Part shown: positions 4,913 through 14,948 of the stretch, in pieces
How positions within the stretch are numbered: the stretch's first letter is position 1
Layout: each line of letters begins with the position of its first letter
DNA from: Phascolarctobacterium sp.
GTDB lineage: Bacteria; Bacillota; Negativicutes; Acidaminococcales; Acidaminococcaceae
DNA length: 49,621 nt
Assembly (NCBI GenBank): GCA_017452325.1
Contig: JAFTMR010000073.1
Location: 1 to 49,621, forward strand
Direction: 5' to 3'
Translations under genes and position numbers: made by a program
The notes under the pieces: model-generated
Database searches by the model: none
Told to the model about the DNA's origin: nothing
The model's input: only the letters and a program-made list of their open reading frames with translations

Positions 4913-5353
4913 TTATTCTTCCCCTTGATAAACGGAAAGTGCTTCCAACGCCAGTGCGTAGCCTGCAAAACCTAAACCGCAAATTTGTCCGATACAGCCT
5001 GCCGCAGTTACGGATTTATGACGGAACTCTTCGCGAGCGTGAATATTGCTGATATGCACTTCGATAGCAGGGATATTCACTGCCTTCAAGGCATCAAGTA
5101 CTGCTACGCTGTAATGGGTAAGCGCCGCCGGATTTATAACAATACCATCGTAAACGCCGTAAGCTTTTTGGATGGCGGTGACAATATCGCCCTCGTAATT
5201 GCTTTGCACCAAATCCACATGCACGCCTAATTTATCGGCAGCAGACTCGATATATGCACACAAGCTTTTAAAATCACGACGACCATAAATATTTTTCTCA
5301 CGCACTCCCAACATATTGATATTGGGACCATTCAACACTAAAATCTTCTTCAT
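4913..5353 (-). CDS. aroQ: Type II 3-dehydroquinate dehydratase
   Basis: 146 residues, the normal length of the dodecameric type II enzyme. It removes water from 3-dehydroquinate to give 3-dehydroshikimate, step 3 of the shikimate pathway. Visible family marks: LVLNGPNINMLGVRE with the following IYG (active-site Tyr and flexible Arg loop), NPAALTHYSVAVLDAL and EVHISNIHAREEFR with the catalytic His. Last gene of the operon; its ATG overlaps the aroK stop by one base (TAATG). The operon terminator follows immediately. Confidence 0.96.
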   Translation of the reverse strand: MKKILVLNGPNINMLGVREKNIYGRRDFKSLCAYIESAADKLGVHVDLVQSNYEGDIVTAIQKAYGVYDGIVINPAALTHYSVAVLDALKAVNIPAIEVHISNIHAREEFRHKSVTAAGCIGQICGLGFAGYALALEALSVYQGEE

Positions 5354-5850
5354 TATTTTACCCCCCTGACGTAGTTAACCAGTTTTTCCACTGTTTCTTC
5401 AGACGGACCATTGTTACCAATGATGTAGGTTGCGTACTCTTTATAAAGAGCAATGCGGTCTTCGTACAACTTGAACAAGCGCAGCTTGTCTTCGCACAAA
5501 AGGGGACGCACCACATCGTTAATGGTTTCGTAAATTTTTTCCGGCTTACGGTCGATGAAAACGATAACTCCGTTTTCGGAAAGCAGCTTCATATTTTCAG
5601 GACGGATCACTGCCCCGCCGCCAGTTGCAATGATTACGCCATCCTTCTCCGCCAGATATTTTAGCGTGCGGGTCTCTGCTGCGCGGAAGGCCTCTTCACT
5701 TTCCGCAAAGAAGTCCTCAATGCTGCGATGCTCCCGCATTACCAGCACTTCATCTGCATCAAAGAAGTCACGCTGCATTTCTTCTGCCAGTTTTCTACCG
5801 AAGGTCGATTTACCACAGCCAGGCATACCAATCAAAATTATATTTTTCAT
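5353..5850 (-). CDS. aroK: Shikimate kinase
   Basis: 165 residues. Phosphorylates shikimate to shikimate-3-phosphate with ATP. Walker A is GMPGCGKSTFG near the N-terminus; FDADEVL supplies the shikimate/Mg-binding Asp, and IATGGGAV is the conserved GGG shikimate loop. A short lid region precedes the C-terminus. The start ATG overlaps the aroE stop (ATGA). Confidence 0.95.
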   Translation of the reverse strand: MKNIILIGMPGCGKSTFGRKLAEEMQRDFFDADEVLVMREHRSIEDFFAESEEAFRAAETRTLKYLAEKDGVIIATGGGAVIRPENMKLLSENGVIVFIDRKPEKIYETINDVVRPLLCEDKLRLFKLYEDRIALYKEYATYIIGNNGPSEETVEKLVNYVRGVK

Positions 5851-6668
5851 ATGCTACGCTCCAATTCAGTCATAATCCTTACGATTAGCTGACTATCGTA
5901 AGTTTTTCCCTGCCAAATTTCCTGCGCCGCCACAGCCTGCGCCACAAGCATAAACAAACCATTCACGTATTTCTTGCCTGCGTCCTTCGCCTGTTTCAAG
6001 AACAAGGTTTCCACAGGATTATAGATTAAATCTACTGCTGCCTCGAAGTTTGCGCACACCTTAGCGCTTACGGGAGCAGCTTCCACTTTGGGATACATAC
6101 CAACGGGAGTGCAGTTAATGATTACATCCCCTCGCGAATCTTCCAAAGTAGCGTAGTCAATTACTTTACAATTAGGTGCTATTTCCAGAAAGTGTTGGTC
6201 AACGCTTTGAGGCTCGCGGGTTACAAGGTAAATCTCCTCAGCTTCCTTATCTGCCAAATATTTCATTACTGCGCGGGCAGCACCACCACTACCTAAAACC
6301 ACAGCAATTTTTCCAGTGATGGCAATGTCGTTGTATTCTAACATTCTGCCAAAACCGAAGTAGTCAGTGTTAAAACCAAAAGCACCCTCCGCAGTGAACT
6401 TGATGGTATTCACTGCGCCAATAGCTTTCGCTTCGGGAGCAATGCTATCTAACAAAGGCATTACGGAAATTTTATGGGGAATGGTTACGTTACTGCCTGC
6501 GTAGGTAGTGCGCATTCCCATTACTCTTTCAGGCAAAGCTTCCAGTTCCGTTTCCAGTAAACCGTAAGTGCCTTCAACACCAGTATATTTAAAAAACAGT
6601 TCATGAATTTTGGGTGATAAGCTGTGTCCCAGCTTGCCACCTAACAAACCATACTGCATAAAGCTCAT
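5847..6668 (-). CDS. aroE: Shikimate dehydrogenase
   Basis: 273 residues. NADPH-dependent reduction of 3-dehydroshikimate to shikimate. The N-terminal substrate domain has YGLLGGKLGHSLSPKIHELFF and SNVTIPHK, with the catalytic Lys and shikimate-binding Ser residues. The Rossmann motif is VLGSGGAARAV, and the C-terminal part has NGLFMLVAQAVAAQEIW. Overlaps pheA by four bases. Standard member of this operon. Confidence 0.96.
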   Translation of the reverse strand: MSFMQYGLLGGKLGHSLSPKIHELFFKYTGVEGTYGLLETELEALPERVMGMRTTYAGSNVTIPHKISVMPLLDSIAPEAKAIGAVNTIKFTAEGAFGFNTDYFGFGRMLEYNDIAITGKIAVVLGSGGAARAVMKYLADKEAEEIYLVTREPQSVDQHFLEIAPNCKVIDYATLEDSRGDVIINCTPVGMYPKVEAAPVSAKVCANFEAAVDLIYNPVETLFLKQAKDAGKKYVNGLFMLVAQAVAAQEIWQGKTYDSQLIVRIMTELERSI

Positions 6669-7783
6669 TCCTTTCGGTCGTCAGCACGATAGTTACCCAA
6701 AATTTTGAAATAGGTACAATTATTGCGTACTGCTTCAAAACCGTCTATTACGTCCGGATCTTCCAAATTTCCTTTCAAATCAACATGGAAGAAATATTCC
6801 CAAGATTTCCCCTCCATAGGGCGGGATTCTATATTTACCATGTTCAAACCGCGATGATGCAAATGTCCCAAAGTTTTATACAAGGAACCGGCTTCGTGCT
6901 TAACTGCAAAAACAATGGTGATCTTATTCGCCACAGGCACCTTCTCCTGTTTTTTGGCGATAATAACAAAACGGGTAGAGTTATTGGAATTGAAGTTAAT
7001 ATTTTCTGCCAAGATTTTTAAGCCGTACAGCTCCGCTGCCTTCTTACCTGCAACTGCAGCAAGGGTAATATCCTTTTGTTCAGCAACGGTTTCCGCACTC
7101 TTGGAAGTGCTAAAATAAGGGATTTGTTCAATCTGGGGATGGTCTTTAAAAAATTCCTTGCTTTGAGCCAAGCCTTGGGGATGGCTATAAACCTTGGTAA
7201 TAGTATTCAGGGTAGCATCACCGTAACCCAAAAGGTTCTGTTCAATCTTGATGCAACGCTCGCCCACGATACTGCAATCAAATTTACGCAGCAAGTCGTA
7301 AACCTCTGTAATACCGCCAGTAGATGAGTTTTCGATAGGGATAACACCGTAATCAACTTCACCCCTGCTTACGGCAGTAATTACTTCTTCAAACAGATTG
7401 AAGTGCTTGCGCTCGTAATCCTGCCCAACAAAATAATCTTCCAAGGCTTGATGGGTGAAGGAACCGGGAACACCAAAGCAGGCGATTTGCAAGGTGCGGT
7501 CGCTTACCTTCGCCAGTTCTGCTTCTTCCAGCACACAAGCAGCGTCCATAATGCTGTGCATAATGGTTTCTACCGCAGGCACGTAATCCTTGTTTTCCAA
7601 AAATCCCGTTACCTTTTCTACAACCTTTGCTTCGCGCGCCTTGTCTTTTACCGGAATCCCCTTAGATTTTTTGTATTCGGCAACCTGCATTACCAAGCCC
7701 AAACGTGCTTCCAAAATAGCAGCAAGCTGTCGGTCAACCTTATCTATTTCTTTGCGGATAACTTCCAAATCCAATTCTGCCAT
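6665..7783 (-). CDS. pheA: Bifunctional chorismate mutase / prephenate dehydratase (P-protein)
   Basis: 372 residues with three parts: an AroQ-type chorismate mutase (about 1-85, LEVIRKEIDKVDRQLAAIL), a prephenate dehydratase domain (about 95-280, CFGVPGSFTHQALEDYF and the catalytic STSKSAE region), and a C-terminal ACT domain (AGSLYKTLGHLHHRGLNMV and ESRP), the usual site of Phe feedback inhibition. It converts chorismate through prephenate to phenylpyruvate. It lies between aroC and aroE, placing the Phe branch inside the shikimate operon. The upstream ribosome-binding site is weak, with only a four-base gap after the aroC stop. Confidence 0.95.
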   Translation of the reverse strand: MAELDLEVIRKEIDKVDRQLAAILEARLGLVMQVAEYKKSKGIPVKDKAREAKVVEKVTGFLENKDYVPAVETIMHSIMDAACVLEEAELAKVSDRTLQIACFGVPGSFTHQALEDYFVGQDYERKHFNLFEEVITAVSRGEVDYGVIPIENSSTGGITEVYDLLRKFDCSIVGERCIKIEQNLLGYGDATLNTITKVYSHPQGLAQSKEFFKDHPQIEQIPYFSTSKSAETVAEQKDITLAAVAGKKAAELYGLKILAENINFNSNNSTRFVIIAKKQEKVPVANKITIVFAVKHEAGSLYKTLGHLHHRGLNMVNIESRPMEGKSWEYFFHVDLKGNLEDPDVIDGFEAVRNNCTYFKILGNYRADDRKE

Positions 7784-7787
7784 AGTA

Positions 7788-8879
7788 TCATTTCCATTTC
7801 TTCGCTTCTAAAAGTAAATCCCACATAGTCCAAGCAGTTACTGCTTCAATAACGGGTACTGCTCTTTGCACAATGCAGGGGTCGTGTCTGCCGACAATGG
7901 TTAAAGTGGTATCCTTATGCTCCTGCAAGCTAATAGTTCTTTGCTCGCGGGAGATGGAAGGTGTCGGTTTAATCGCCACTCGGAAAATTACAGGCATACC
8001 ATTGGTAATGCCACCGGTAATACCGCCATTGTGATTAGTTTCTGCCACAACCTTACCGTCTTCATAATGGAGCTGGTCATTGGCTTCTGCACCGGTCATA
8101 GTGCTAATAGCAAAACCGTCGCCAAATTCTACACCCTTTACCGCAGGCACGCTAAAGAGGACGTGACTCAAGCGGCTTTCCACAGAATCAAAATAGGGAG
8201 CGCCTAAACCAGCAGGCACGTTGGTAACAGCTGCTTCGATAACGCCGCCAACACTATTCAGATTTGCCTTGGCTTCTAAAATCTTTGCCTGCATTTTTTC
8301 GCCAATAGCATCATCCAGTACGCAGAAGTCTTTACCATTAAGCTCTGCAATTTTCTTATCATCAATCCCCAATGGGTTAAAGTTTTCTTCCTTTATATCT
8401 GCAATTTGCAGAATATGTGCGCCAACTAAAATTCCTGCTTGCGCCAGCGCCTGCTTCGCTACCGCACCCATGAAAACCAGAGGCGCAGTCAGGCGACCGC
8501 TAAAATGCCCGCCACCACGATAATCGTTAAAGCCCTGGTAACGGACAAAGCCTGCGTAATCCGCATGGCCGGGACGCATCTTATCTTTCAAAATGCTATA
8601 GTCCTTAGAATGTTGGTCACTATTTTTAATTACCACGCACATGGGAGTACCTGTGGTGTAGCCTTCAAAAAAACCACTTTGAATGGCAAAACTGTCACTC
8701 TCCTTGCGTTGGGTAGAAAGCTGGTTCTTACCCGGAGCGCGACGTGCCATTTCTTTTTCGATGGCTTCTAAATCTAATTGTAATCCGGGCGGTACACCAT
8801 CAATAACCAGACCGATGGAAGCGCCGTGGGATTCGCCATAGATTGCCATTTTGATATTTATTCCGTAAATTCCACTCAT
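7788..8879 (-). CDS. aroC: Chorismate synthase
   Basis: 363 residues. Uses reduced FMN to eliminate phosphate from EPSP, forming chorismate. Family signatures seen: YGESHGASIGLVIDGVPPG, the MRPGHADYAG segment with RGGGHFSGR, and the C-terminal HDPCIVQRAVPVIEAVTA. Its start overlaps the aroA stop by four bases (ATGA). Confidence 0.97.
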   Translation of the reverse strand: MSGIYGINIKMAIYGESHGASIGLVIDGVPPGLQLDLEAIEKEMARRAPGKNQLSTQRKESDSFAIQSGFFEGYTTGTPMCVVIKNSDQHSKDYSILKDKMRPGHADYAGFVRYQGFNDYRGGGHFSGRLTAPLVFMGAVAKQALAQAGILVGAHILQIADIKEENFNPLGIDDKKIAELNGKDFCVLDDAIGEKMQAKILEAKANLNSVGGVIEAAVTNVPAGLGAPYFDSVESRLSHVLFSVPAVKGVEFGDGFAISTMTGAEANDQLHYEDGKVVAETNHNGGITGGITNGMPVIFRVAIKPTPSISREQRTISLQEHKDTTLTIVGRHDPCIVQRAVPVIEAVTAWTMWDLLLEAKKWK

Positions 8880-10180
8880 GCCAGCACCTCAATCTTACCG
8901 CCAACCTGTTTGTAATCCTGCCAGAATTCAGGATAGGATTTTTGCACGCTGCTTGCACCTGTCAGGGTGAAAGGTTCAACGCACTTTTGCGCAGCGATCG
9001 CCAAGCTCATGGCAATACGATGGTCGTTCCAGGCATCAACCTCTGCGCCACCACGCAAGCCTTCAGGCTTACCTTTTATAATCAAACCTTCGGGAAGTTC
9101 AGTAATATCTGCTCCCAATTTGTTAAGCTCTTGAGTAATCGCCGCCAGTCTATCACATTCCTTAATACGCAAGCGACCGGCGTTGATGATTTCTGTTGTG
9201 CCTTCGCTTACCGCAGCCAATACGGTCAGCACAGGGATAATGTCGGGGCAGTTAGCACCGTCAATAATTGTTGCCTTGGTAGTTTTGCTAATGGTTACTA
9301 CATCAGTACCTTGAACGGAGATATCCGCAGCCATACCTTCCATAATAGGAACTACTGCCTTATCCCCTTGCAGGGAAGTGTAGTCAACACCGCTACAGGT
9401 TACTGCTTCGCCCAAGCTTCCACCTACTGTCCAGAATGCTGCTTGAGACCAGTCGCCCTCAACATTACTATCCATTGCTTGATATTTTTGTCCACCGCGT
9501 ACAAGATAACGACGATGAGCATTGTTTTCATTAATAATTTTGATACCGTATTTTGCCAAACAGCTTAAAGTCATATCCACATAAGCTGCAGATTCCAACT
9601 CAGAAGTAATTTCGATAACAGAGTCACATTCAAGTAAAGGCAGTGCAAAAAGCAAACCGCTAACGTATTGACTGCTTACATTGCCGGGCAATTGGTACAA
9701 ACCTGCTTGCAAGCGACCGTTAACGGTCAAAGGCAGTTGTCCACCCTCTGCAGTTGCGTATTCTAAACCTTGCTTAGCAAAAATATCATAGTAAGCATTC
9801 AAAGGACGGCTCACCAATTTACCATGACCGGTAAAGGTGAAAGCTTCGTTCAAAAGTGCTCCCAAAGGAATAAAGAAACGCAAAGTAGACCCGGATTCAC
9901 CACAATCCGCGCCTGCTTCTGCTGCTCTTAACTTTCCTGTGCCAGTTACCTTCAACGCGCTACGCCCTGCAAATTTGCTAGGCACATCCTCAATGACTAC
10001 GCCCAAAGCACGCAAGCAACGACAAGTTGCCTCAATATCCTTGGACATACTGATATTATCTACAACACTAGTGCCTGCTGCCAGCCCTGCACAGATAATT
10101 TCCCTGTGCCCCATACTTTTGGAGGAAGGAGCAAGCACTGTTCCTTTTAACTTCGTCGGAATGATACGGATTTTTTCCAT
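8876..10180 (-). CDS. aroA: EPSP synthase (3-phosphoshikimate 1-carboxyvinyltransferase)
   Basis: 434 residues. Transfers enolpyruvate from PEP to shikimate-3-phosphate. Motifs: LAPSSKSMGHREIICAGLA at the N-terminus, then the substrate-binding DCGESGSTLRFF and VSSQYVSGLLFALPLL, and near the C-terminus DAWNDHRIAMSLAIAA. Two-lobed fold expected from length. In the glyphosate-binding segment the sequence reads GESGSTLRF rather than the class I GNAGTxxR, so it is closer to class II enzymes. Confidence 0.95.
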   Translation of the reverse strand: MEKIRIIPTKLKGTVLAPSSKSMGHREIICAGLAAGTSVVDNISMSKDIEATCRCLRALGVVIEDVPSKFAGRSALKVTGTGKLRAAEAGADCGESGSTLRFFIPLGALLNEAFTFTGHGKLVSRPLNAYYDIFAKQGLEYATAEGGQLPLTVNGRLQAGLYQLPGNVSSQYVSGLLFALPLLECDSVIEITSELESAAYVDMTLSCLAKYGIKIINENNAHRRYLVRGGQKYQAMDSNVEGDWSQAAFWTVGGSLGEAVTCSGVDYTSLQGDKAVVPIMEGMAADISVQGTDVVTISKTTKATIIDGANCPDIIPVLTVLAAVSEGTTEIINAGRLRIKECDRLAAITQELNKLGADITELPEGLIIKGKPEGLRGGAEVDAWNDHRIAMSLAIAAQKCVEPFTLTGASSVQKSYPEFWQDYKQVGGKIEVLA

Positions 10181-10183
10181 GAT

Positions 10184-11248
10184 TTACCCCAGATAGTTTG
10201 GCACTTCCTGCCAATTTATTTTATGCAATCTACCGTTGCCAATTTCATCTAACACAATCAGCGTAATGCTGTTGCCACTTTTCTTCTTATCCTTCGCCAT
10301 TGTGCCTAAGAGTTCAGACTTCGCCACACCTGCTTCGATAGGAAGATTATATTTTTTCAAGACCTCTGCAATTCTTTCCGCAGTACCATCAGGAGTCATA
10401 CCCAATTCTTCAGTACGCTTAGTGATTTGATACATACCGATAGCAACACCTTCACCATGAGTATATTCCCCATAGCTATAGTGCTGTTCTACAGCGTGAC
10501 CTAAGGTATGTCCAAAATTCAAAATACCACGCAAGCCTGTATCAAACTCATCTTGTTCAACGATGCTTGCCTTAATAGCGCAACAAGTTGCTACAACGCT
10601 ACCAATGTCTGCCAACAGCTCTGCATCATTTTCGTAAGCAGCAATCTTGTCAAACAGAGCATCATCTTGAATACAGCCATACTTAATTGCTTCTGCCAGA
10701 CCGTCGTGCAAGAAACGGACGGGCAAAGTCGCCAACAGATTAGTGTCAATGAACACGCCCTTCGGTTGATAGAAAGCACCTGCCAAATTTTTGCCAGCTT
10801 TTAAATCTACGGCTACCTTACCGCCAACGCTACTATCTATTTGCGCCAGTAAAGACGTTGGAACTTGCACAAAAGCAATGCCACGCATGAAGCTTGCAGC
10901 CGCAAAGCCACCTAAGTCACCTACAACGCCGCCACCTAAAGTTACCAGCACGTCACTGCGGGTCAAGCCACTTTCTGCAATTTGCTCCAACACATTGCTA
11001 AGCACTTGCATATTCTTGCTTTGTTCCCCTGCTTCGATGGTAACAATAGTTGCAGGCAGCCCTGCTTCCGTCAAAGATTTTTGCAATGCTTCTCCGTAAA
11101 GAGGTGCAACATTAGTATCGCTGACAATTACCGCCTTCTGTGCCTTGGGTACGAGGGCAGCTACCTTACCGCCAATTTGCGGTAAAAGTCCTGCACCAAT
11201 TTCTATATCATATGCATGTTTTCCTAAATCAACATGAATCTTCTCCAT
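10184..11248 (-). CDS. aroB: 3-dehydroquinate synthase
   Basis: 354 residues. NAD- and metal-dependent conversion of DAHP to 3-dehydroquinate, step 2 of the pathway. Seen: EAGEQSKN, VTLGGGVVGDLGGFAAASFM (NAD binding), VPTSLLAQIDSSVGGKVAVD and the metal-binding LNFGHTLGHAVEQ with a later HGEGVAIGM. The start codon shares a base with the tyrA stop (TAATG), so translation is probably coupled. Confidence 0.97.
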   Translation of the reverse strand: MEKIHVDLGKHAYDIEIGAGLLPQIGGKVAALVPKAQKAVIVSDTNVAPLYGEALQKSLTEAGLPATIVTIEAGEQSKNMQVLSNVLEQIAESGLTRSDVLVTLGGGVVGDLGGFAAASFMRGIAFVQVPTSLLAQIDSSVGGKVAVDLKAGKNLAGAFYQPKGVFIDTNLLATLPVRFLHDGLAEAIKYGCIQDDALFDKIAAYENDAELLADIGSVVATCCAIKASIVEQDEFDTGLRGILNFGHTLGHAVEQHYSYGEYTHGEGVAIGMYQITKRTEELGMTPDGTAERIAEVLKKYNLPIEAGVAKSELLGTMAKDKKKSGNSITLIVLDEIGNGRLHKINWQEVPNYLG

Positions 11249-12312
11249 TAGTAGAGTTCCTTTCTTCTGGCAGCAGCAACACGCATCATATCCTTCATCT
11301 GCTCGCCATCACCTGCACGCAATGCCTTACGCCACAGGTCAAGCTGTTCAATATATTTATCAATTTCGTCAGCAACCTTTTCCTTATTGGCAAGGAACAA
11401 GCTACACCACAATTCCGGATTAATATCTGCTACGCGAGAACCATCCTTAAAGCTGCCTGCTACAAAGAACTTGGTCTTATCATTGTAAGAGATACTGTTC
11501 ATCAACGCCACTGCAGTAACGTGAGTCAAATTACTGGTGTAGGCAATGATACGGTCGTGTTCTTCGGGAGTTACCCTTACAGTATTACGACAGCCTAAAG
11601 CCATGGCAAATTTTTCTAGCCACTGTACAGTTTCTTCCCTGTTATGTTTTTCAGGAACAATGATGTAATTGGCATCACGGAAAATTTCTGCCTCAGACAT
11701 TCCCAGTCCACTGCCTTGACGCCCCGCCATGGGATGACCGGAGATAAATTCCATACCAACCTTCAATTCAGCATGAGCATCCTTAGTCAATGTTCCTTTA
11801 ATACCGGAAACATCCGTAATCAAAACATCATCTTTAAAATATTGCACATTGTTGCGTAAGAAATCCACGATGCTTTCCGGATACACAGCGCAAATAATTA
11901 CATCTGCTTCTCGCAAAGCCTCGTTAGGCTCCGTCAGTACAAGGTTAGCAAGTCCCAAACGTTGCACTTGCAGAGCAACCTCTTTATCAATTTCTACTGC
12001 AATTATATTTTTAACACCGAGGTTGCGTAAAGCCTTGGCATAGGAACCACCTATAAGTCCCATACCGATAATGGCAAACTTTAGCTGTTCCCACTTGGTG
12101 CTTCTACCGCGCTTGGTAATCTCTACAACTTGCTCTATGACTTCATCTTCGCCCAAGGTACTAACTTCAAAACCGCTAGTATCACCTACGATACCAAACA
12201 AAGTAATATTAGCACCTTTACTTTCGTGAATGATAAAGCCCTGATTTTCTAGTTTAACTCTAACCCTTAGCTTCGCTTCTTCCGGAACATTGGGTTTAAA
12301 TACGATTATCAT
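11248..12312 (-). CDS. tyrA: Prephenate dehydrogenase with an N-terminal DAHP-synthase-type domain
   Basis: 354 residues. From about residue 76 it is a prephenate dehydrogenase: NAD motif IIGMGLIGGSYAKAL (about 81-95), ISGHPMAGRQGSG, TPEEHDRIIAYTSNLTH. It oxidatively decarboxylates prephenate to hydroxyphenylpyruvate, the Tyr branch. Residues 1-70 (MIIVFKPNVPEEAKLRVRVK, then IVGDTSGF) are plainly homologous to the first 70 residues of the two adjacent DAHP synthases, the ferredoxin-like domain that in Thermotoga-type DAHP synthase carries feedback control. I see no C-terminal ACT domain, so the N-terminal domain may be its Tyr sensor. The fusion is visible in the sequence; the regulatory role is inference. 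Confidence 0.93.
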   Translation of the reverse strand: MIIVFKPNVPEEAKLRVRVKLENQGFIIHESKGANITLFGIVGDTSGFEVSTLGEDEVIEQVVEITKRGRSTKWEQLKFAIIGMGLIGGSYAKALRNLGVKNIIAVEIDKEVALQVQRLGLANLVLTEPNEALREADVIICAVYPESIVDFLRNNVQYFKDDVLITDVSGIKGTLTKDAHAELKVGMEFISGHPMAGRQGSGLGMSEAEIFRDANYIIVPEKHNREETVQWLEKFAMALGCRNTVRVTPEEHDRIIAYTSNLTHVTAVALMNSISYNDKTKFFVAGSFKDGSRVADINPELWCSLFLANKEKVADEIDKYIEQLDLWRKALRAGDGEQMKDMMRVAAARRKELY

Positions 12313-12379: not shown

Positions 12380-13393
12380 TTAAAGCTCTCTACCCACAAT
12401 TTGAGCAATGCCTTTCAGCTCACCCATCAAACGAGCGAAGCGTTCCGGTTTTAAAGATTGGGCACCGTCGCACAAAGCATGTTCAGGATCGTTATGTACT
12501 TCAATCAACAGACCATCTGCACCAACAGCCACTGCTGCTTTTGCCAAAGGCTCTACCATCCACCACAAACCTGCTGCATGACTGGGGTCAACAACTACGG
12601 GCAAATGGCTCAACTTTTTAACCGCAGGGATGGCACTCAAATCCAAAGTGTTACGAGTGTAAGTTTCAAAGGTTCTAATACCACGCTCACACAGAATAAC
12701 ATTTTCGTTACCACCAGCCATAATGTATTCTGCGGACATAATCCATTCCTCGATAGTCGCGGAAAGACCACGTTTCAGCAAAATCGGAGTGCGGGTTTTA
12801 CCCAACTCTTTTAAAAGTTCAAAGTTTTGCATATTACGAGCACCTACTTGGATAAGGTCAACATCTTCTACGAAGCGTTCAATCTTATCAGCGCTCATAA
12901 TCTCGGTAACGATTGGTAAACCTGTTTCTTCTCGAGCAGCCTTCAAATAATCTAAGCCTAATTCCTTCAAGCCTTGGAAGCTGTAGGGAGAGGTTCTAGG
13001 TTTAAAAGCACCACCACGCAACAATGAAGCACCACCCAATTTAACAGATTGTGCTACAGAAGTTACCTGTTCAACGCTTTCAACTGAGCAGGGACCGGCA
13101 ATAACCTGAATCTTACGACCGCCAATAGGTACTCCTGCCACGTCAATAACACTGTCTTCTGGATGGAAGGCACGATTAGCACGTTTAAACGGCTCCTGCA
13201 CGCGCATAATCTTTTCAATGCAATCATCAGAAATCAAAGTGCGCATATCAAAGGCACTGGTATCACCAACAATACCATACAGGGTAACATTCAAACCATT
13301 ACTTTCATGAATCTGAAAGCCTTGATTTTCTAATTTAGCTCTTACCTTCAATTTTGCTTCTTGGGCTGCACCTGGTTTAAATACAATAATCAT
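12380..13393 (-). CDS. aroF: 3-deoxy-7-phosphoheptulonate (DAHP) synthase, second copy
   Basis: 337 residues, type I-beta DAHP synthase. Condenses PEP with erythrose-4-phosphate, the entry step of the pathway. Residues 1-70 form the ferredoxin-like regulatory domain (MIIVFKPGAAQEAKLKVRAK); the TIM barrel follows with IQVIAGPCSVES, RGGAFKPRTSPYSFQG and VDPSHAAG. The barrel is almost identical to that of the next gene upstream, but the regulatory domain is clearly diverged, suggesting duplication with different feedback properties. Good ribosome-binding site (AAAGGAGCG) before the ATG. The symbol is used for the family; these are sometimes called aroG. Confidence 0.94.
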   Translation of the reverse strand: MIIVFKPGAAQEAKLKVRAKLENQGFQIHESNGLNVTLYGIVGDTSAFDMRTLISDDCIEKIMRVQEPFKRANRAFHPEDSVIDVAGVPIGGRKIQVIAGPCSVESVEQVTSVAQSVKLGGASLLRGGAFKPRTSPYSFQGLKELGLDYLKAAREETGLPIVTEIMSADKIERFVEDVDLIQVGARNMQNFELLKELGKTRTPILLKRGLSATIEEWIMSAEYIMAGGNENVILCERGIRTFETYTRNTLDLSAIPAVKKLSHLPVVVDPSHAAGLWWMVEPLAKAAVAVGADGLLIEVHNDPEHALCDGAQSLKPERFARLMGELKGIAQIVGREL

Positions 13394-13524: not shown

Positions 13525-14538
13525 TTAGAGGTCGCGGCCTACAATTTGGGCGATACCCTTCAATTCGCCCATCAAACGTGCGAAACGCTCCGGTTTCAAA
13601 GATTGAGCACCATCACATTTTGCATGTTCAGGGTCATTGTGTACTTCAATAAGTAAGCCGTCTGCGCCAACAGCAACTGCTGCTTTTGCCAAAGGCTCTA
13701 CCATCCACCACAGACCTGCTGCGTGGGACGGGTCAACGATTACCGGCAAATGGCTGAGCTTTTTAACTGCGGGAATAGCGCTCAAGTCCAAAGTGTTGCG
13801 GGTATAATGTTCAAAAGTACGAATACCGCGTTCACACAGGATAACGTTTTCGTTACCGCCAGCCATAATATATTCTGCGGACATAATCCATTCCTCGATG
13901 GTTGCAGAAAGACCACGTTTCAGCAAAATCGGAGTACGGGTTTTGCCCAGCTCTTTCAAAAGTTCAAAGTTTTGCATATTGCGTGCGCCTACTTGGATAA
14001 GGTCAACATCTTCTACAAAACGTTCAATCTTATCGGCACTCATAATCTCGGTTACGATGGGTAAACCAGTCTCTTCCCTTGCTGCTTTCAGATAATCAAG
14101 ACCAAGCTCTTTTAAACCTTGGAAGCTATAGGGAGAAGTTCTAGGTTTGAACGCGCCACCACGCATCAAGGTTGCGCCACCAAGCTTAACGGATTTAGCA
14201 ACAGTGATTACCTGCTCTTGACTTTCAACAGAGCAAGGACCTGCAATAACCTGAATCTTACGGCCACCAACTGGTACTCCAGAAACGTTAACAACACTGT
14301 CATCCGGATGGAAAGCACGGTTAGCACGTTTGAAAGGTTCAGAAACACGCAGTACTTTTTCAACGCAATCATAAATGCGCAACATATTGATATCTAAAGC
14401 ACTGGTGTCACCGATAATTCCGTAAATAGTAGTATTAATACCGTTAATTTCATTAATCATATAGCCTTGATTCTCAAGGTTTTGCTTAATACCAGCCTTA
14501 GTTTCTTGGGGTGCATTAGGTTTGAATACTATTACCAT
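13525..14538 (-). CDS. aroF: 3-deoxy-7-phosphoheptulonate (DAHP) synthase, first copy
   Basis: 337 residues from the ATG at 14538, which has AAGGAGAG eight bases upstream; an in-frame ATG at 14562 lies before that site and is rejected. First structural gene of the aromatic operon. Same architecture as its neighbour: N-terminal ferredoxin-like domain (MVIVFKPNAPQETKAGIKQN) and type I-beta barrel with IAGPCSVES and RGGAFKPRTSPYS. The two barrels differ at only a handful of positions after about residue 115, whereas residues 1-70 differ much more. It is expressed behind a Phe/Tyr leader peptide and attenuator. Confidence 0.94.
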   Translation of the reverse strand: MVIVFKPNAPQETKAGIKQNLENQGYMINEINGINTTIYGIIGDTSALDINMLRIYDCVEKVLRVSEPFKRANRAFHPDDSVVNVSGVPVGGRKIQVIAGPCSVESQEQVITVAKSVKLGGATLMRGGAFKPRTSPYSFQGLKELGLDYLKAAREETGLPIVTEIMSADKIERFVEDVDLIQVGARNMQNFELLKELGKTRTPILLKRGLSATIEEWIMSAEYIMAGGNENVILCERGIRTFEHYTRNTLDLSAIPAVKKLSHLPVIVDPSHAAGLWWMVEPLAKAAVAVGADGLLIEVHNDPEHAKCDGAQSLKPERFARLMGELKGIAQIVGRDL

Positions 14539-14659: not shown

Positions 14660-14695
14660 GCTTAAAATAAAAAGGGCTCTCGTAAGAGAGCCCTT
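14660..14695 (-). terminator. Attenuator terminator of the aromatic operon
   Basis: Minus-strand hairpin with 10-bp perfect arms AAGGGCTCTC / GAGAGCCCTT, loop TTAC, followed by TTTTATTTT. It lies between the leader peptide stop and the first structural gene, so full-length transcription requires readthrough. A GCCTTT about 45 bases upstream could pair with AAGGGC (one G-U) as an antiterminator. A separate hairpin GGTGAT/ATCACC lies between them at 14716-14735. Confidence 0.85.
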
Positions 14696-14754
14696 GTAAA
14701 AAACATATCTGTCGTGGTGATTATAACCTATCACCTAAAAGGCACTGTTTACGA

Positions 14755-14865
14755 TTAATCTGCATATGAATCTTGGCAAGCAAAAAAGCCGGTGCTAAAG
14801 TAAAAGCTAAAGTCCGGTGCAAAGTAGCCGTATTCAATTGCAGAATTTCTTAAAACAATGTCCAT
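14755..14865 (-). CDS. Phe/Tyr-rich leader peptide of the aromatic operon
   Basis: A 36-residue ORF with AGGTG about nine bases before its ATG, lying 48-55 bases downstream of a near-consensus promoter. It begins MDIVLRNSAIEYGYFAP, has FSFYFSTGFF in the middle and ends CQDSYAD. Six Phe and four Tyr codons are concentrated in the central part, the amino acids made by the operon. The stop precedes the attenuator hairpin. This is the classic layout of transcription attenuation: ribosome stalling at Phe or Tyr codons when charged tRNA is short would favour the antiterminator. Too short for an ordinary gene call. The mechanism is inferred from layout. Confidence 0.82.
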   Translation of the reverse strand: MDIVLRNSAIEYGYFAPDFSFYFSTGFFACQDSYAD

Positions 14866-14919
14866 TTCAATTCACCTGCAAAAAAGATTACACCTTTGTG
14901 TTCAAAAGCTATTGAGGTA

Positions 14920-14948
14920 ATTCTATACTTTTAGTGCACAACAGTCAA
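14920..14948 (-). promoter_or_regulatory. Promoter of the aromatic amino acid operon
   Basis: Minus strand TTGACT, 17 bp, TAGAAT. Transcription from here would begin about 45-50 bases before the leader-peptide ATG. The remaining sequence up to the end of pepT (14949-15087) is A/T rich and shows no further gene. Confidence 0.8.

Follow-up and report, generated by a model that had tools for sequence, protein, structure and literature searches.

A DAHP-synthase FXD domain on the prephenate dehydrogenase of a Phascolarctobacterium lineage, a probable tyrosine sensor

In a 1.80 Mb Phascolarctobacterium sp. MAG of 119 contigs, from which the 49,621-nucleotide stretch analyzed here (the window) comes, TyrA is a DAHP-synthase FXD domain joined to a complete prephenate dehydrogenase. 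The probable explanation is that tyrA received at its start a copy of the 5′ part of an adjacent Tyr-type (H29/S31) aroF, so that its product, a prephenate dehydrogenase, now bears the ACT-like FXD found at the N-terminus of type I-beta DAHP synthase, and that the copied domain makes TyrA subject to inhibition by tyrosine through FXD pairing, in parallel with AroF1, the product of the neighboring gene. The fusion is rare within the family, and the domain on TyrA is under purifying selection.

The tyrA frame and coordinates of the first-pass annotation are correct (Table 1), and its ATG start at 12312 has AAGGAA about 9 nucleotides upstream. The first 67 residues of the protein match all 67 positions of the Pfam profile DAHP_snth_FXD (cut-off 27 bits, E 9e-14). 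Both PDH_N and PDH_C score over their cut-offs, the catalytic part has Foldseek matches to the prephenate dehydrogenases 3ggo, 4wji and 7mqv, and the motifs GHPMAG, TDVSGIK and FKDGSRVA are present in the sequence of this predicted dehydrogenase. The profile search found the DAHP_synth_1 barrel in AroF1 and AroF2 and not in TyrA. It gave no match to ACT (PF01842) on TyrA at E 0.001, the chain ending 10 residues past PDH_C, which bears out the earlier remark that a C-terminal ACT domain is lacking, and no amino-acid sensor other than the FXD was found on TyrA by that search.

Table 1. Features of the tyrA neighborhood, in positions of the window
Feature	Position	Strand	Basis
tyrA, FXD-prephenate dehydrogenase fusion	11248..12312	minus	354 aa ORF, domain profiles
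FXD domain of TyrA, residues 1-67	12112..12312	minus	PF18152 51.4 bits; whole-genome scan; AF2 with Foldseek/VIA to 4grs, 1rzm, 1vr6
PDH_N nucleotide-binding domain of TyrA, residues 92-242	11587..12039	minus	PF02153 90.7 bits
PDH_C dimerisation domain of TyrA, residues 248-344	11281..11571	minus	PF20463 75.5 bits
TyrA codons H29-E30-S31, presumed Tyr-site signature, as in AroF1	12220..12228	minus	alignments
aroF1, DAHP synthase, H29/S31 (Tyr-type) FXD and catalytic barrel, likely donor type	12380..13393	minus	
FXD of AroF1	13193..13393	minus	profile, genome scan
aroF2, DAHP synthase, N29/I31 FXD and catalytic barrel	13525..14538	minus	
FXD of AroF2	14338..14538	minus	profile, genome scan
Operon remainder: aroB, aroA, aroC, pheA (CM-PDT-ACT), aroE, aroK	5353..11248	minus	
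Intrinsic-terminator-like hairpin and T tail, after leader	14672..14695	minus	
Leader peptide MDIVLRNSAIEYGYFAPDFSFYFSTGFFACQDSYAD, 36 aa, 6 Phe and 4 Tyr	14755..14865	minus	
Sigma-70-like promoter TTGACT-17-TAGAAT, upstream of leader	14920..14948	minus	10/12 consensus matches; consensus only

Homology of the TyrA N-terminus to the N-terminal domains of both adjacent DAHP synthases, claimed at first sight of the sequence, is upheld by Pfam, by pairwise scores and by fold. The TyrA and AroF1 domains are 63% identical over 65 amino acids with a local score of 218, against a mean of 23 (sd 4.4, maximum 48) for 2000 shuffles; with AroF2 the score is 172 and the shuffle maximum 55. The AroF1 and AroF2 domains themselves score 63.8 and 64 bits, and a genome-wide scan finds exactly three copies, those of TyrA, AroF1 and AroF2. 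The shared segments noted earlier are there in all three proteins, IVFKP being common to them and GIVGDTS of TyrA and AroF1 being GIIGDTS in AroF2. The full-length match to PF18152 over its gathering score is accompanied by the fold of the Thermotoga maritima domain. The top PDB match of the AlphaFold model of the TyrA FXD is 4grs (E 8.5e-6, TMq 0.85, Z 12.2), Foldseek matches with E <0.001 are to DAHP synthases only (the 4GRS chimera and T. maritima 1rzm and 1vr6), and VIA-align gives Z of 11.0-12.2 for these three entries versus 9.0 for the next, which is unrelated. A structural comparison showing the region to be unrelated had been proposed as what would undo the homology; as the best matches are all DAHP synthases, the homology stands. 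The predictions are single-chain, and in the full-length model the FXD and Rossmann parts are good and the C-terminal dimerisation part is poor, with stretches of pLDDT <50. A PDB search by sequence took AroF1 to the FXD-bearing T. maritima enzyme and TyrA to prephenate dehydrogenases only, aligned from residue 65 on.

The first-pass annotation had called for a domain search among Negativicutes TyrA proteins, and this places the fusion in one lineage of them. Of the family genomes, 54 have a TyrA match, and in six of these the match runs from the start of the FXD; four are MAGs of the window's genus-level group and two (G032 and G034) are placed in a sister group of the Phascolarctobacterium lineage. 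The TyrA FXDs of the second-group MAGs, Horse_feces175 and S28M_St_metabat_98, score 61.3 and 60.9 bits, above the Pfam cut-off. The nearest named relatives of the window's genome, all Phascolarctobacterium sp. MAGs of deer-gut origin, have TyrA identities of 95, 93 and 81%. The other 48 TyrA proteins lack the domain, their matches beginning at about residues 34-79, although an FXD-bearing AroF is encoded next door. The low values in that range are read-through of a stop, and G027, G057 and similar cases were rejected as fusions on finding an internal stop, what precedes being read-through of the upstream region. In a phylum sample 298 of 398 genomes have a TyrA match (E 1e-25), and the domain itself is common (305 of 398), yet among the approximately 150 TyrA matches listed the window's alone covers the FXD; both the family and the phylum lists hold the top 150 or so matches, where a fused protein should rank high. 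Further afield, the Neomarinimicrobiota loci L069, L070, L073 and L075 were rejected as FXD-PDH fusions, as aroF and tyrA-pheA are separate overlapping genes there. In L068-L070, L073 and L075, aroF is followed by an overlapping tyrA-pheA fusion of about 440 amino acids, with a PDH-like and a prephenate dehydratase-like part.

The minus-strand operon has the order aroF2-aroF1-tyrA-aroB-aroA-aroC-pheA-aroE-aroK, the aroF2 start being taken at 14538, preceded by AAGGAG, within a predicted ORF that extends to 14562. AroF FXDs in the family are of two types at residues 29 and 31, H-x-S and N-x-I, and often there is one of each per genome. In the window TyrA and AroF1 share H29/S31, as does T. maritima DAHP synthase when numbered by alignment, and AroF2 has N29/I31. 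H29, E30, S31, G33 and GDTS are invariant in all four window-group TyrA FXDs; S31 and G33 are in all six TyrA FXDs and H29 is in five, D29 replacing it in one second-group protein. Residues 29 and 31 of the T. maritima enzyme reportedly help to choose tyrosine over phenylalanine, from the work of Cross and Parker, and by that enzyme we take the same positions of TyrA to be in its tyrosine site. The thought that one sensor might govern the entry enzyme and the Tyr-branch enzyme stands insofar as TyrA and AroF1 carry homologous domains, but the three FXDs are not equivalent and, given N29/I31 in AroF2, a shared sensor would couple TyrA to AroF1 only. The Phe branch has its own sensor, a weakly scored ACT region in PheA. 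AroF1 and AroF2 have barrels about 94% identical and FXDs only 57% identical, and in trees the barrels sort mainly by lineage, the FXDs mainly by sensor type across genera. This pattern, one enzyme with two sensors, is what would be expected from gene conversion confined to the barrel, combined with selection on sensor specificity, and suggests such conversion.

As to origin, the donor of the FXD was most likely the adjacent Tyr-type aroF, as proposed earlier, but since AroF1 is intact the domain was copied rather than moved. Probably this happened twice independently, the H/D29-x-S31 type of sensor being acquired on each occasion. The four TyrA domains of the window group make up one clade of the FXD tree (99/97) adjoining that group's AroF1 FXDs (joint set 87/94), and the G032 TyrA domain groups with its own group's H-x-S AroF FXDs (98/96). 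It seems unlikely that there was instead a single ancestral fusion, followed by losses in sister lineages and by local gene conversion from the adjoining aroF, an alternative that concerns origin and not function. On the PDH tree a single fused clade escapes clear rejection (p-AU 0.075), but one clade of all TyrA FXDs is disfavored (p-AU 0.034, or 0.035 when the long-branched G034 is left out), and in the tree from the remaining operon genes the two fused groups are separate, its starred branches forcing two changes. Junctions differ too. Fused TyrA proteins have three linkers of differing length and sequence. In the window group EITKRG is followed by RSTKWEQL, the latter being the native N-terminus of unfused relatives, and G032 has retained ESFRGGFRPEKG, which is suggestive of the AroF linker EPFKRANRAFHPED. 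Synonymous divergence is near saturation and so shows no recent conversion in the window group. That the fusion is an error of assembly or annotation could be entertained for so fragmented a MAG, but the same fusion in six MAGs of two groups, which include separately assembled ones from water deer, roe deer and horse, refutes it, and tyrA has a ribosome-binding site before the FXD start and no internal stop.

Comparison of the window-group species with one another gives the TyrA FXD a dN/dS of 0.09-0.22 at dS of about 0.8-1.5, and such values at dS near 1 mean that the domain is maintained. It is nevertheless less constrained than the AroF1 FXD (0.04-0.08 in the same comparison, with 0.02-0.06 for the TyrA catalytic part), and its amino-acid sequence evolves about 2-4 times faster, which leaves room for a change of ligand or partner.

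That this type of domain senses tyrosine or phenylalanine, as the first-pass annotation stated, is published for T. maritima DAHP synthase, where two FXDs come together to bind tyrosine (PMC5493349) and aromatic amino acids bound at them restrict access to the active site (PMC5526877). By the favored explanation, L-tyrosine would likewise be bound at the interface of two FXDs in a TyrA dimer or tetramer, and the tyrosine-bound pair would close or restrict the TyrA active site. TyrA and AroF1 would then answer to the same ligand through homologous sensors, and AroF2 would respond to something else, probably phenylalanine. We infer the binding and the inhibition, the geometry of gating and the AroF2 specificity; since TyrA catalysis takes place in a Rossmann-type dimer where DAHP synthase has a barrel, the gating geometry cannot carry over directly. 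Support for a tyrosine-sensing TyrA comes from the identity and fold of the domain, its lineage, purifying selection, the conserved signature and the lack of any other sensor on TyrA. The faster evolution of its FXD and the D29 of one second-group protein count against it.

The domain could instead be kept for folding, solubility or assembly with no sensing of a ligand, tyrosine inhibition, if any, being competitive at the TyrA active site. TyrA of sister lineages does without the FXD, the domain evolves faster on TyrA than in AroF, and tyrosine complexes exist for FXD-less TyrA (3ggg and 4wji, by their titles). But a domain with no sensing duty would not readily account for the conserved signature residues in the window group, for the probable acquisition of the same sensor type twice, or for purifying selection, and this alternative has a low probability. 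A lower one attaches to the suggestion that the TyrA FXD serves mainly for hetero-association with AroF1, giving a tyrosine-gated complex of the entry and Tyr-branch enzymes. The two proteins are of the same H29/S31 type and are encoded by adjacent genes of one operon, pairing of FXDs is known from T. maritima DAHP synthase (PMC5493349), and PMC5526877 mentions a non-covalent complex of Mycobacterium tuberculosis chorismate mutase and DAHP synthase, by which regulation is altered. Against such pairing, in each genome the FXD of TyrA has drifted from that of AroF1 to some 60% identity, and between these paralogues synonymous changes are nearly saturated. It would be a distinctly long shot for there to be a natural TyrA-AroF1 hetero-complex through the FXDs, with one tyrosine-binding interface that switches both enzymes off and a wiring that evolved twice in sister lineages.

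Compared with known systems, the fused TyrA has the same domain in the same N-terminal position as type I-beta DAHP synthase of T. maritima (TM0343; 1rzm/3pg9; PF18152 and PF00793), with 31-32% identity to the modeled TyrA FXD, Z of about 11 and H29/S31 in both, but there the domain sits on the DAHP synthase barrel and here on prephenate dehydrogenase. The 4GRS chimeric DAH7PS, in which the T. maritima domain was engineered onto an unregulated DAHP synthase, has the same module and is the best structural match, but it is man-made and keeps the same catalytic fold, in contrast to a natural fusion to a different enzyme. TyrA-ACT of Bacillus (5uyy from B. anthracis) likewise has a small amino-acid sensor of ferredoxin-like form on its prephenate dehydrogenase; that sensor is C-terminal and PF01842, whereas that in the window is N-terminal and PF18152. 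In the available portion of Song et al. (PMC1173090), the TyrA fusions listed are AroQ-TyrA, TyrA-AroF (EPSP synthase), HisHb-TyrA, ACT, TyrA-REG and an A. fulgidus four-domain protein, and independent ACT fusions are noted; these are aromatic-pathway or regulatory domains on tyrA, some acquired more than once, and no DAHP-synthase regulatory domain is among those in that portion. A literature search mostly outside subscription papers yielded no report of a DAHP-synthase FXD on TyrA, which is weak evidence. Regulatory TyrA fusions are thus known, and the FXD on TyrA suggests a further variant, with no report found. It is a natural counterpart of the 4GRS graft, made apparently twice and on a catalytic fold unrelated to the original one, and both ends of the pathway are likely under one kind of tyrosine sensor in some Phascolarctobacterium-related gut bacteria. 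With matched fused and unfused TyrA proteins in sister species, the coupling of an allosteric domain to a new enzyme is directly testable, and the three versions of one sensor in a single operon are material for work on tyrosine versus phenylalanine specificity.

Ahead of the operon, a promoter-like site, leader and terminator (14672-14948, minus strand) probably constitute a Phe/Tyr attenuator. A similar leader is upstream of the first aroF in all 10 genomes checked, and a short ORF as aromatic-rich arose in 2 of 300 shuffles. A match to Rfam STnc100 in this region (29.9 bits, threshold 47) was taken as chance. The leader of G034 (L064, about 2420-2518) has 6 Tyr and 1 Phe, and only an H-x-S aroF was found in that genome; leaders are Phe-richer in genomes with N-x-I type aroF than in G034. 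The attenuator could track the sensor make-up, on what is anecdotal evidence. Elsewhere in the family, the two genomes G026 and G027 of group g9 have an FXD-less DAHP-synthase paralogue between aroF and tyrA (L043:5494-6378 and L044:1380-2246). Its AGPCS and KPRTSPYSFQG active-site motifs are lost, yet purifying selection maintains it (dN/dS 0.17), and it looks like a pseudoenzyme.
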